From: an uncultured archaeon
GTDB taxonomy: Archaea; Thermoproteota; Bathyarchaeia; Bathyarchaeales; DTEX01
NCBI GenBank assembly: GCA_938091805.1
Contig: CALKGV010000037.1
Coordinates: 1-44,138 of the forward strand
Direction: 5' to 3'
DNA length: 44,138 bases
In this document: one piece after another, positions 3,374 to 7,137 of the stretch
Position numbering within the stretch: the first letter of the stretch is position 1
Layout: each line of letters opens with the position of its first letter
Translations under genes and position numbers: made by a program
Notes under the pieces: model-generated
Told to the model about the DNA's origin: nothing
The model's input: the letters and a program-made list of their open reading frames with translations, nothing else
Database searches by the model: none

Positions 3374-4624
3374 TTAGCATTCGCCTTCATATTCACTTAA
3401 ATCTTCAAACAAATCCTCAGCTAAGCTAGGTAAGTCTGGGGATGCTAACTTAATCAAGTCCTCCCTTCCCTCAGAATAGCCTGACGCTATCAGTATATCG
3501 CCAATTTCAATCCTCGTATCGAGTTTAGGCCTAATACATCGATCTTTTCTTCGGATAGCAAGTATTCTCATTCCTGTTTCTTCCGGCAGATGGATTTCCC
3601 TCAAAGTCTTATTCACGAGTGGAGATTTATCACTTACCCTAGCATACGCTATGGTCTCCTCCGCATCCATTATTGTCATCTTTAAAACTGGGTGAGGCTC
3701 AATCCCCCTAAGGATCACCTCCGCTATTTCGGCAGCTGCATCTGCAATTTTTTCAGCCGCAACCCCTAATCTTATTAATCCAAGAAGACCTTTAGCCTCT
3801 TCTTTACTAAATTCGCTTAGTAAAACAAGCAGCTCAAAATTTGTATGCAACTTATCAACATACTCTTCGAGGCTGTTTACTTCCTCAGCTAGATCTTTAC
3901 TATTTAACAGAAGCGCAGAGTAGGCCAAACTTATCATTAGCTCAGATGTGTCCTTAAGCTCAATAAACTGCTTTGCCATATCTCTGAAACGCTCCGTTTC
4001 ATTTTTTAGGGTTTTTAGACGTTCTTCTACTCTGAAAGGCCCTGCTTCAGCTTTCTCTCTAAACTCTTTTATACCTTCTTGAGCACCACGCACAATGAAA
4101 ATATCATTACTCTTAACCTGCTCTTCATTTCCCGGATTTATTATCCAGTCCCTATTCCTACGAATGGCTATAACGTCTATTCCCATGCTAGTTAAATCTA
4201 AATCGTTTATTTGTTTGCCGACTATAGGCGAGTTTTCGGAGACTTTAATTCTTGCTAAATGCTCCTCAACTCTCTCAAATATTTCTGCTACGATTGGGTG
4301 CACGCCAATGTCTTGGAGAACTATGGCGGCTATGTCACCAGCTGCATCTGAAATTTTATCAGCTGCTGAGGCAACCTTGGCAACGCCCGATAGGGCTTTA
4401 GCTTCATCAGCATCTCTTGCAGCCATCATTATTTCCATGTCTAAGAGATAGGTGAGCGTGTCCACGCGATCCTCAAGATCTATAACGTCCTCCGCGAGAT
4501 CCCTATCGTTAAATAATGCGGCTGAATAGGCTAAATCGATCATTAACTCAGAAAGATTCTTCATTTCTAAAAGCAATTCTCTGACAGATATGGGCTTATA
4601 CTTTACCTTTTCTTTTTTACGCAT
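3374..4624 (-). CDS. Tandem PhoU-TrkA_C regulatory protein (COG3273-like, duplicated)
   Basis: This 416-residue soluble protein is built from two homologous halves. Each half starts with a PhoU-like helical bundle (SELMIDLAYSAALFNDRDLAEDV near residue 20; SELMISLAYSALLLNSKDLAEEV near residue 230). Each then has a TrkA_C (RCK_C) beta-rich domain (GIDVIAIRRNRDWIINPG; GMRILAIRRKDRCIRP). TrkA_C domains bind ligands or ions at channels and transporters, and PhoU-type bundles bind metal clusters. Proteins with this architecture in archaea are associated with MgtE/SLC41-type transporters, and here the partner gene lies upstream on the same strand. It probably forms the cytosolic gate or sensor of that transporter. 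GGAGGG stands about 15 bases before the ATG, which is long spacing. Confidence 0.8.
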   Translation of the reverse strand: MRKKEKVKYKPISVRELLLEMKNLSELMIDLAYSAALFNDRDLAEDVIDLEDRVDTLTYLLDMEIMMAARDADEAKALSGVAKVASAADKISDAAGDIAAIVLQDIGVHPIVAEIFERVEEHLARIKVSENSPIVGKQINDLDLTSMGIDVIAIRRNRDWIINPGNEEQVKSNDIFIVRGAQEGIKEFREKAEAGPFRVEERLKTLKNETERFRDMAKQFIELKDTSELMISLAYSALLLNSKDLAEEVNSLEEYVDKLHTNFELLVLLSEFSKEEAKGLLGLIRLGVAAEKIADAAAEIAEVILRGIEPHPVLKMTIMDAEETIAYARVSDKSPLVNKTLREIHLPEETGMRILAIRRKDRCIRPKLDTRIEIGDILIASGYSEGREDLIKLASPDLPSLAEDLFEDLSEYEGEC

Positions 4625-4706: not shown

Positions 4707-4998
4707 GCGCGGGGATGTGGCAACTTAAGGTTAGGGCTTTGACTAGTCAAATGGGTTTTAAGGTCCTTAGCCTAGTAATACCTGAGAAATTCGTTTTCCA
4801 GCAGCCCTAAAATCCTCTATCATCGCAGACATGGCAACTTAAGGTTTCTATAGTGGGGGATGGATGGTTTTCAGTCTATTGAGAGAACGGGTGTTTTCAG
4901 ATGTTTTAGGCATCGTTCAGTCCTTTATCGGTGAAATGAGAAGCTTAAAACCCGTTGACTAGTCAAAAGACAGACCTTAAGTTGCCACGTCTAAGCGC
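4707..4998. repeat. Inverted-repeat element, about 290 bp with ~56 bp arms (MITE-like)
   Basis: The left arm (4707-4762) and right arm (4943-4998) are reverse complements over about 56 bases with few mismatches. Both contain GTGGCAACTTAAGGT, then the perfect 12-base palindrome TTGACTAGTCAA, then GGGTTTTAAG. A third partial copy of the end motif (GGCAACTTAAGG) sits inside at 4832-4843 in the left-arm orientation. The interior has only short reading frames, for example 32 codons at 4864-4962 on the plus strand. Terminal repeats this long around a gene-less core suggest a non-autonomous transposable element or an IS remnant. I see no clear target duplication. It fills most of the 415-base gap between the MgtE-type gene and its PhoU-TrkA_C partner, and would fold into a very long hairpin if transcribed. 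Confidence 0.7.
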
Positions 4999-5039: not shown

Positions 5040-6263
5040 CTAATATAATAGGATGAACAGAATTGCTATACATGTGGTTAGCATTGCATCTGTCACGGAA
5101 GTTTCTATCGGTATTACAAAATTATCTGGATCTAAACCGTTCTTGAAGGTTAGAATCGCTACTGAATAGGCTAATAAAAATATTATTGGAGAAAGTAAGA
5201 TAAAGGATATTACCGCTATAAAAAAGGATTTTAGGTTTCTATCAATTAGATACGCTATTGACCCGTAAATCGCATAATAAATAAGCCCCGAACACCATAT
5301 TTGAGCTAAGTCGTGAAACTGCATCCTAACATCACTTATTTTGGCTTTAACTAAACCTAAGTGAAGCCTTGTTGTAGTAATTGAACCGAAGGAAGCTGCC
5401 ACATCGCCAAGCGAATCTATGAGAGCTGGATAAATTACGAGAATCTCTTGCGCCTCCTCAAGTTGTTTTTCGATTTGAAGTAAGAAAAACCCAGATATCA
5501 TCGCTATTAACGTGGCTAACACGGTGGCCAAGAAAGATTCCCTTAAAGTTTTCCAATACTCGCTTTCATTTCTAAATCTGTAAGTGACGATGCAGAATAA
5601 AAAAATTGCCATTAAACCTATCATGTGAATTATAATCGCGCCTGCAGCGTTAAGCCAAAAAGCGATCATTAACGAAATCACATAAGATATTGTTGACAGT
5701 ATATCTGCTATTGATGAGCTGAATGGATATAGGATTATGTCCGGGTCTAAACCTCTCTTATAAGCAATGAACGCTACAATCGCTGTTGCAGGGTTAATTA
5801 ACCCTAGAGAAATTGCTTGAACCGCCAAACTTGTAAAAAGTATTAAATTAAGTTCCTCTAACGGGGCATTAGTGATCAGAAGAGCTATGAAACTTGTAAG
5901 CAGACCTATAAGCAAAGATAGGGCTAATTGCGAGCTTAAAATAACATGATAATACCTTGTATTTTTTGTTAGACTTGGTTTTATCAGCCCTACATGAAGT
6001 CCAGTGCTGAGCCTCCCGGCTAGAATTCCATTTATAGCCCCCTTGCTTGTTAGAACGGTGGGATATATCGCTATGGACCAGCTTCTGAACCTTATGAGGT
6101 TAGTGTAGAACATGGCGAATATTATTCCAGCAACAAGACCGAGAGGCGTATTAGAGAGTGAAAACATTGATTCCCAAAAAATTTTAAACCTTCTTCTAGC
6201 TTTTCCCCTCACGTTCGATGTTTCTTTGCTTATTGCTCCGCCATCAGCCTCCATTGCCCTCAC
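5040..6263 (-). CDS. MgtE/SLC41-type divalent cation (Mg2+) transporter, two membrane domains
   Basis: This 407-residue polytopic membrane protein has about ten hydrophobic segments and no CBS or N domain. It is an internal duplication. YPTVLTSKGAINGILAGRLS (67-86) matches YPALIDSLGDVAASFGSI (278-295). GLDPD..LYP...SIAD (171-187) matches GLDPD..VIP...SVTD (376-392). The GxDPx(5-6)Px(3-4)D pattern is the signature of the MgtE integral membrane domain, whose Asp residues line the Mg2+ site. The two fused domains resemble the eukaryotic SLC41 layout. The start may be GTG 6263 or the in-frame ATG at 6254 (MEADGG). No TATA box is visible in the 65 bases back to the small ORF upstream, so the two are probably co-transcribed. 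The ion is inferred from the family. Confidence 0.8.
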   Translation of the reverse strand: MRAMEADGGAISKETSNVRGKARRRFKIFWESMFSLSNTPLGLVAGIIFAMFYTNLIRFRSWSIAIYPTVLTSKGAINGILAGRLSTGLHVGLIKPSLTKNTRYYHVILSSQLALSLLIGLLTSFIALLITNAPLEELNLILFTSLAVQAISLGLINPATAIVAFIAYKRGLDPDIILYPFSSSIADILSTISYVISLMIAFWLNAAGAIIIHMIGLMAIFLFCIVTYRFRNESEYWKTLRESFLATVLATLIAMISGFFLLQIEKQLEEAQEILVIYPALIDSLGDVAASFGSITTTRLHLGLVKAKISDVRMQFHDLAQIWCSGLIYYAIYGSIAYLIDRNLKSFFIAVISFILLSPIIFLLAYSVAILTFKNGLDPDNFVIPIETSVTDAMLTTCIAILFILLY

Positions 6264-6328
6264 TCATCACTTAATTTTCTGGGAAAACTCTGCTTATGGA
6301 TCTGAGCTCTCTCAAAAACGATGATTGA

Positions 6329-6424
6329 TTAGGCAATAAATCTTCTTGATGATTTACGCTTGCCAGAAACAGACTGCTGGTCAGATTCATCTTCTTCACC
6401 ATCTGATATATCCCCGTTATCCAT
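6329..6424 (-). CDS. Small ORF (31 aa), acidic N-terminus and basic C-terminus, upstream of the MgtE-type gene
   Basis: An ATG at 6424-6422 follows AAGGGAGG (6435-6428). The frame runs 31 codons to TAA at 6331-6329. The peptide begins MDNGDISDGEEDESDQQ, with 8 acidic residues in its first 15, and ends GKRKSSRRFIA. A TATA-like TTTTTAAG lies at about 6475-6468, placing transcription start some 20 bases before the ATG. It is 65 bases ahead of the MgtE-type gene on the same strand, with no promoter between them. I recognise no family. It could be a real small protein or a translated leader peptide that senses magnesium, as MgtL does in enterobacteria. The ribosome binding site and composition argue for translation; the function is inference. 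Confidence 0.5.
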   Translation of the reverse strand: MDNGDISDGEEDESDQQSVSGKRKSSRRFIA

Positions 6425-6486
6425 ATGCCTCCCTTGTCAGCGTATCCTCAGTAAAGGACTTTAATGACTTAAAAATTAGAATCTAC

Positions 6487-6499
6487 TTTATAAATAAAT
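6487..6499 (+). promoter_or_regulatory. TATA box of the DUF998-like gene
   Basis: CTTTATAAATAAA lies about 40 bases before the TTG at 6535 and fits an archaeal TATA element. With the GAGGAGG ribosome binding site just before 6535, it shows that the gene starts there and not at an upstream in-frame ATG (6346). That earlier start would run antisense through the small ORF at 6329-6424. Confidence 0.55.
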
Positions 6500-6534: not shown

Positions 6535-7137
6535 TTGTCGATTGTAAAGGATAGAGTCGTCCATCTGCTTGGACTTATAGGTTCCTTAATCGCTTATATA
6601 GCCATAGGTTTATCAATTTATCTGTCACCCTGGTTTAAGTGGGAAAGTAATGCGCTGAGCGATCTTGGCCATGCGCAAAGAAGCGAGGTTGCGCCCATAT
6701 TTAATTTCGGCTTATTAGTCTCCGGCTTCATAATAGCTATTTATTCAGTTAAATCTCTAAGTAAATACGCCAAATACACAAGTATATCACTAACGTTCTC
6801 AGCTCTAATGCTACAGACGGTAGCAACATTCGATGAAATATATAGCAATCTCCATTTTCTAGTATCCGTATTATTTTTTGTTTCCATAGGTTTCTCCTGC
6901 ATTATATACTCTATAGAGAAGAAATCTATTTTGGCGGCTCTAGCCTTTACAGTAGGGTTATTATCCTGGATGCTATATTGGGCTGGTTTATATAAGGCTG
7001 GTGTTGCTGTACCTGAAGTAATATCGGCGGTGGCGGCCACTTTATGTATTATTCAATCAACGTTAAAAATTCTAAACATTTATGGAAACAAATCTGCTAA
7101 CATGCGCGATCATACAGGGTCTGCTTCGCATCAGTAA
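6535..7137 (+). CDS. DUF998-like integral membrane protein
   Basis: This protein of about 200 residues has six hydrophobic segments. After the first one it carries WESNALSDLGHAQRSEVAPIFN, the loop typical of DUF998 membrane proteins (N-x-LSDLG followed by an asparagine-containing IFN motif). The biochemical role of the family is unknown. I place the start at TTG 6535, which has GAGGAGG at about 6518-6525 with normal spacing and a TATA box 40 bases upstream. A longer in-frame reading from 6346 adds 63 residues without membrane character. The gene is divergent from the magnesium-type module and is followed by a separately promoted sugar kinase. Confidence 0.65.
   Translation: MSIVKDRVVHLLGLIGSLIAYIAIGLSIYLSPWFKWESNALSDLGHAQRSEVAPIFNFGLLVSGFIIAIYSVKSLSKYAKYTSISLTFSALMLQTVATFDEIYSNLHFLVSVLFFVSIGFSCIIYSIEKKSILAALAFTVGLLSWMLYWAGLYKAGVAVPEVISAVAATLCIIQSTLKILNIYGNKSANMRDHTGSASHQ

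Follow-up and report, generated by a model that had tools for sequence, protein, structure and literature searches.

What is a very short and strongly acidic reading frame doing immediately upstream of an archaeal gene for a magnesium transporter? The question arises from a stretch of 44,138 nucleotides (the window), part of a 1.71 Mb Bathyarchaeota MAG whose nearest named relative is JZ-2_2_bin_4.3.1 (G003). The original prediction was that the small ORF may be a leader peptide comparable to enterobacterial MgtL, acidic at its start and basic at its end, on which ribosomes would become unstable when Mg2+ is low, thereby turning on the transporter.

Two overlapping frames ahead of mgtE

The transporter gene is read from the minus strand. 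Its product matches PF01769 twice in a domain search (3e-27), and transport of Mg2+ is predicted from this family. In the direction of transcription, the region comprises the following features:

6468..6497, minus strand: TATA-like boxes TTATTTA (6497-6491) and TTTAAG (6473-6468), upstream of ORF1
6428..6435, minus strand: Shine-Dalgarno sequence of ORF1, AAGGGAGG, 3 bases 5' of the ATG, a short spacing
6329..6424, minus strand: ORF1, the acidic leader ORF, 31 codons, MDNGDISDGEEDESDQQSVSGKRKSSRRFIA
6381..6406, minus strand: predicted hairpin UCAGAU/AUCUGA of 6 bp (in both the MFE and centroid folds), with the Shine-Dalgarno sequence and AUG of ORF2 in its loop
6383..6403, minus strand: codons 8-14 of ORF1 (DGEEDES), the same bases as the Shine-Dalgarno sequence and ATG of ORF2
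6271..6390, minus strand: ORF2, a second leader ORF, 39 codons in the +1 frame of ORF1, MNLTSSLFLASVNHQEDLLPNQSSFLRELRSISRVFPEN
5040..6263, minus strand: mgtE, two MgtE domains, SLC41-type, starting at GTG 6263 or ATG 6254

ORF1 is as the original prediction described it, a 31-codon frame with its own ribosome site, on the strand of the two-domain gene and 65 bases from its GTG at 6263. Eight of its first 15 residues are Asp or Glu, and it is proline-free. The claim that no promoter separates it from mgtE agrees with inspection by eye, which found no TATA-like box in this interval of the window. Such boxes lie on the other side: TTTAAG is 49 bases from the ATG of ORF1, and in 38 of 67 relatives a TATA-like box is found 25-75 bases 5' of ORF1, mostly at 49-52. 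With such a box some 50 bases 5' of it, ORF1 is probably the first ORF of the transcript. What the earlier reading overlooked is ORF2, which begins inside the acidic stretch (Shine-Dalgarno GGTGA at 6400-6396, spacing 5, ATG at 6390-6388) and whose stop precedes the GTG of mgtE by 7 bases.

The neighbourhood deserves a brief description. A divergent DUF998 gene begins near 6535. Downstream of mgtE and on the same strand, positions 3374-4624 (minus) encode a two-repeat PhoU and TrkA_C protein, possibly a functional partner of mgtE, and a MITE-like element lies between the two genes (4707-4998), with 52-nt inverted ends that are 77% complementary and an inner copy of the repeat. The MgtE protein of the window is closer to that of family f4 genomes (54% identity) than to that of its own genus (38%), so that the locus was either transferred or is an old paralogue.

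A search with the 31-residue peptide itself matched the nearest relative only, because the peptide is poorly conserved, and an alignment of upstream DNA was therefore needed. In G003, where MgtE is 89% identical to that of the window, the promoter region, the Shine-Dalgarno sequence, the start and the first 12-13 codons of ORF1 are kept, while a deletion of about 100 bases reduces ORF1 to MDNGDTSDGEEDDFPKN, now ending against the mgtE start; the basic tail is thus not conserved. The leader product of family f4 is MEGGNDESSQQYTSGKPKLRRGESRKQN. Over a 13-codon core shared with the window, the ORF1 frame preserves D-E-S-x-Q-Q-x-x-S-G-K-x-K, with 9 residue matches of 13 by hand count against 4-5 in the other frame, and serine codons switch between the two leaders (TCT/AGT and TCT/AGC).

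A leader plan across the order

The comparison was extended to the upstream DNA of mgtE in the order, 115 genes in all. Most of these leaders carry a small acidic ORF preceded by a Shine-Dalgarno sequence of its own, and a plan recurs: at the acidic motif of ORF1 stands an inner start, led by GGTGA at a spacing of 5-6, which either belongs to MgtE itself or opens an ORF2 that runs as far as the mgtE start. Wherever ORF1 was curated and the inner start identified, this start is in the +1 frame relative to ORF1. It belongs to MgtE, as an N-terminal extension, in families f4, f6 and f2, part of f1 and some of f8; in most f8 leaders, as in the window, it opens an ORF2 (38-71 codons in f8 and the window). 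ORF1 also varies. In most f8 leaders it starts with a GTG 15 bases past a conserved GGAG, with 50-60 codons as a rule (e.g. VELEGSLRKALLKRCLWMGESEGGSEGGQDEISQ); in f6 it reaches 70-90 codons and may overlap mgtE. Ca. Bathyarchaeum tardum M17C-73-01 has the leader too (L158 = G041; ORF1 MEKSDLLKEELQVESEPDESSQHL). ORF1 is missing from some leaders, namely those of g21, g17 and several g1 members.

All 28 leaders tested, that of the window among them, have the ORF2 stop between -20 and +25 bases relative to the start of mgtE; the number expected from dinucleotide-shuffled spacers is 3.8. An upstream ORF that stops at, or over, the next start is the mark of a translationally coupled leader cistron, and this is what is observed here. 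The curated ORF1 set was picked partly by eye, and the unbiased set is that of a mechanical rule, which asks for a Shine-Dalgarno-led ORF1 with at least 3 acidic residues and an inner +1 start, with its own Shine-Dalgarno sequence, that is the gene's or opens an ORF stopping at it. This rule is satisfied by 51 of the 115 mgtE leaders, by 5 of 78 control genes (genes with a Shine-Dalgarno start, taken from the window and from the retrieved loci) and by 94 of 970 shuffled leaders (Fisher p 2e-9, uncorrected for phylogeny). With at least 4 acidic residues required, the counts are 43 of 115 against 2 of 78. At least one strict case is found in 30 of 51 genera and a curated ORF1 in 38 of 51, again uncorrected for phylogeny.

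Several properties of ORF1 point to translation. Before the inner start, its frame contains a stop in none of 21 f8A leaders, against 20 of 21 in each of the other frames; in f6 the figures are 0 of 10 against 9 and 10 of 10. Gaps within ORF1 in the alignments are multiples of three. The synonymous bias that was predicted is seen in part: in several f8 pairs, pN is well below pS in the ORF1 frame and in no other (0.07/0.23, 0.06/0.32, 0.09/0.40 and 0.11/0.46), but pN/pS is near one in f6 and others, and over all pairs it is 0.55 for ORF1, the other two frames giving 0.65 and 0.87. With a total of only 0.55, the peptide is weakly constrained in many lineages; the pattern suits a leader that depends less on its full sequence than on being read, on its position and on a few residues. 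The small ORF ahead of mgtE is conserved and very probably translated.

Acidic codons occupy fixed sites (E-x-E-x-D-E) and are kept early in the ORF among relatives, as in acidic Mg2+ leaders. The basic end was not kept: on average Lys and Arg are in mild to moderate excess after the motif, and acidic-then-basic is consequently a tendency, not a rule. Part of the acidity comes from the overlap of these codons with the purine-rich ribosome site of the inner start, which ORF1 reads in another frame. Still, Asp and Glu make up 50% of ORF1 codons -4 to +1, as against 18% when 80 other genes have their ribosome sites read in that frame.

Genus g21 offers a natural comparison, being devoid of ORF1. 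There, all 12 ORF2s, of 34-51 codons and unlike in sequence, have their stop within or immediately at the Shine-Dalgarno sequence of mgtE, mostly TAGGAGG. In 10 of the 12, mgtE starts with AUA, AUU or AUC, aligned to the AUG of sister genes, behind an AGGAGG that holds the ORF2 stop (L086, L094, L098, L103, L105, L108 and L111-L114); such starts make it plausible that MgtE synthesis depends on coupling in this genus. Around the inner start (codons -4 to +1), Asp and Glu reach 25% in g21 against 49% in f8, where ORF1 is present (p 5e-4, uncorrected for kinship), and an acidic codon 0, present in 72% of ORF1s, is absent from all 12 g21 leaders.

Three other explanations of ORF1 were discarded. 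The controls of the mechanical rule, the ORF2-mgtE junction and the counts of open frames and acidic codons rule out a chance ORF. An ordinary conserved small protein would hardly fit the weak pN/pS, and no Pfam or NCBIfam family matched. Finally, an effect of antisense or divergent genes is countered by the fact that ORF1 conservation follows mgtE into genomes with other upstream sequences.

Outside the order, the same plan was found in 5 of 20 leaders from other orders of the class and in 4 of 20 from other classes of the phylum. The latter all belong to family f32 (MDENEETEGATDETHQHSAK / MRPTNIP), which has the DET-QH / MRPTNI core in common and is a good homologue. It also occurs in three MAGs known by the labels of their record titles: one labelled Thorarchaeota (MTGSDDDDGGPDWH / MMMTAGPT), which may be a case of transfer or convergence, one labelled Thermoprotei (ELSGEEGSEDDESNYIRQ, with ORF2 overlapping the mgtE AUG) and one labelled as an unassigned archaeon (MAGSDDDDHPAHARET / MTMTTQPT).

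Two further observations were made on distant leaders. In 13 of 40 leaders outside the order, and in none of the 115 inside it, a tiny ORF, AUGGGGCAA.., often M-G-Q-[QMH]-stop, immediately precedes or overlaps the start of mgtE (shuffle rate 0.15%). It lies within about 65 bases 5' of the MgtE N-terminal anchor (query residue 30) in L186-L189, L192-L194, L212, L215, L216 and L219-L221; in f25 and f27 its stop overlaps the GTG of mgtE. It is either a minimal uORF or an RNA motif. In L199 and L200 (G251 and G256), the mgtE frame has no ATG, GTG or TTG ahead of the conserved N-terminus, and an overlapping ORF (MTCSDEDRDKEQ and MTCNDEDGDKRQ, respectively) reads through the region of the mgtE N-terminus.

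How the leader might control mgtE

The comparison of leaders establishes an order that runs from putative promoter to ORF1, overlapping start and mgtE, with a fixed frame, a constant ORF2-mgtE junction and a definite placing of acidic codons. We are confident that translated, coupled leader ORFs set the translation of mgtE. As to how, we lean slightly towards a translational attenuator at the head of the mRNA, in which translation of ORF1 covers the downstream start and drop-off frees it. ORF1 would be translated first, and it extends over the site where the next ORF begins, Shine-Dalgarno sequence and start codon included. A ribosome that finishes ORF1 would block the inner start and keep MgtE low; one that pauses or drops off at the acidic codons, as happens on bacterial MgtL and MgtQ when Mg2+ is low, would leave this start free, or restart there, and MgtE would rise. 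Where ORF2 ends at the mgtE start, ribosomes would be handed on to the gene. The leader-peptide reading thus survives in its outline, a conserved small ORF with early acidic codons, first on its transcript; it changes in that the acidic stretch doubles as the next ribosome site and start, and control would act on translation initiation and coupling. Whether acid-dependent drop-off is the sensing step we consider an even question. That Mg2+ would be the signal is suggested by the family of the transporter.

The most serious competitor, which we find somewhat doubtful, holds that the overlapping ORFs provide constitutive or general translation control only (damping, coupling or stress-linked initiation) and that ORF1, its acidity being mostly the inner ribosome site, senses nothing. 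Indeed, GGTGA-N5-ATG read in the ORF1 frame yields E-G-E-x-D-E, and the high pN/pS of ORF1 in many pairs is what such control would allow. The 18% of acidic codons at control sites speaks against it, as do their lower share in g21, which retains the inner start, and runs of Asp such as SDDDD, present where they force odd MMMT or MTMT starts on MgtE.

Could the leader work mainly as a structured RNA switch, possibly for metal sensing, with ORFs of secondary importance? We think this unlikely. In a stem of f8B and g21, UUUGGC-AGC-CCGCA...UGUGG-ANN-GCCAAA, 87% of cells are paired, as against 29-41% when slid, and folding of the alignments outdoes column shuffles (z -6 and -8); the covariation of the stem, by contrast, does not exceed that of shuffles (131/500). 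The UGUGGAC strand has a second possible partner in g21, GUCCACA at the start of ORF2, and would form two mutually exclusive folds. Other lineages are less structured, f6 giving no signal (z -1.2 and +1.0) and f8A a modest one (z -2.2). The hairpin of the window does enclose the ORF2 ribosome site, but it is missing in its closest relative, G003. Known riboswitches, for Mg2+ or otherwise, and all other Rfam families were rejected, no covariance model matching at gathering score in 20 sources, window included. We tentatively take RNA structure to be a lineage-specific addition.

Finally, a programmed +1 frameshift fusing ORF1 to MgtE as an acidic N-terminal extension would account for the constant +1 phase of the inner start, and for two class-level mgtE genes that lack a usual in-frame start codon, but it is very improbable, with no conserved slip site seen in the leaders, a Shine-Dalgarno sequence belonging to the inner start itself and, in f8, a +1 frame that terminates at mgtE instead of entering it.

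Returning to the attenuator, we would tentatively propose, somewhat short of even confidence, that archaea sense Mg2+ by intrinsic destabilisation of ribosomes on an acidic leader ORF whose acidic codons lie exactly on the next start, where a ribosome that aborts would free the transporter frame or start on it anew, in a family comprising Bathyarchaeia, f32 (from another class of Thermoproteota) and Asgard MAGs.

Known magnesium leaders

Leader-peptide control is hardly known in archaea, and we know of no demonstration there of acid-induced ribosome drop-off. A survey of the open-access literature, most subscription journals being outside its scope, found no archaeal leader-peptide case for mgtE. 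Annotations of these genes are also likely to be wrong, ORF1 and ORF2 being missed and MgtE starts misplaced where the codon is AUA or AUU.

Control of mgtE genes by their leaders is familiar in bacteria, where the M-box (ykoK) Mg2+ riboswitch precedes mgtE. The archaeal leader has this target in common with the M-box, but is ORF-based and without Rfam match. In E. coli, acidic repeats early in an ORF, adjacent or one residue apart and within about 30 residues, pause ribosomes (PMC11282234), and the spacing of acidic codons in the archaeal ORF1 is that of these repeats. In corL-corA of E. coli and Salmonella, translation of a uORF is likewise inverse to that of a Mg2+ transporter (PMC11552253); corL, however, is bacterial, has few acidic codons and acts through Rho termination. 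The mgtL-mgtA leader of the same species begins, like ours, with an ORF that has acidic codons among its first residues and a Mg2+ transporter downstream. MgtL differs by its EPDP motif and Rho-dependent transcription termination: ORF1 of the window is proline-free, no EPDP motif is found in it or in the curated ORF1s, nor is any proline conserved among ORF1s, no Rho is invoked, and there is no homology. Also close in design is Salmonella mgtQ-mgtB, in which a short, Shine-Dalgarno-led acidic ORF precedes a Mg2+ transporter gene, its acidic codons are needed, the next ribosome site is freed for initiation and alternative stem-loops are formed (PMC8092293). Yet mgtQ has 8 codons, is intergenic in a bacterial operon, does not overlap the next start and is unrelated in sequence; MgtB is a P-type ATPase, not an MgtE, and the archaeal leader adds a coupled ORF2. 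The archaeal leader resembles Salmonella mgtQ and mgtL in its working plan and is not homologous to them. If the proposal is true, acid-dependent ribosome drop-off would serve as a Mg2+ gauge in two domains of life, through unrelated peptides.
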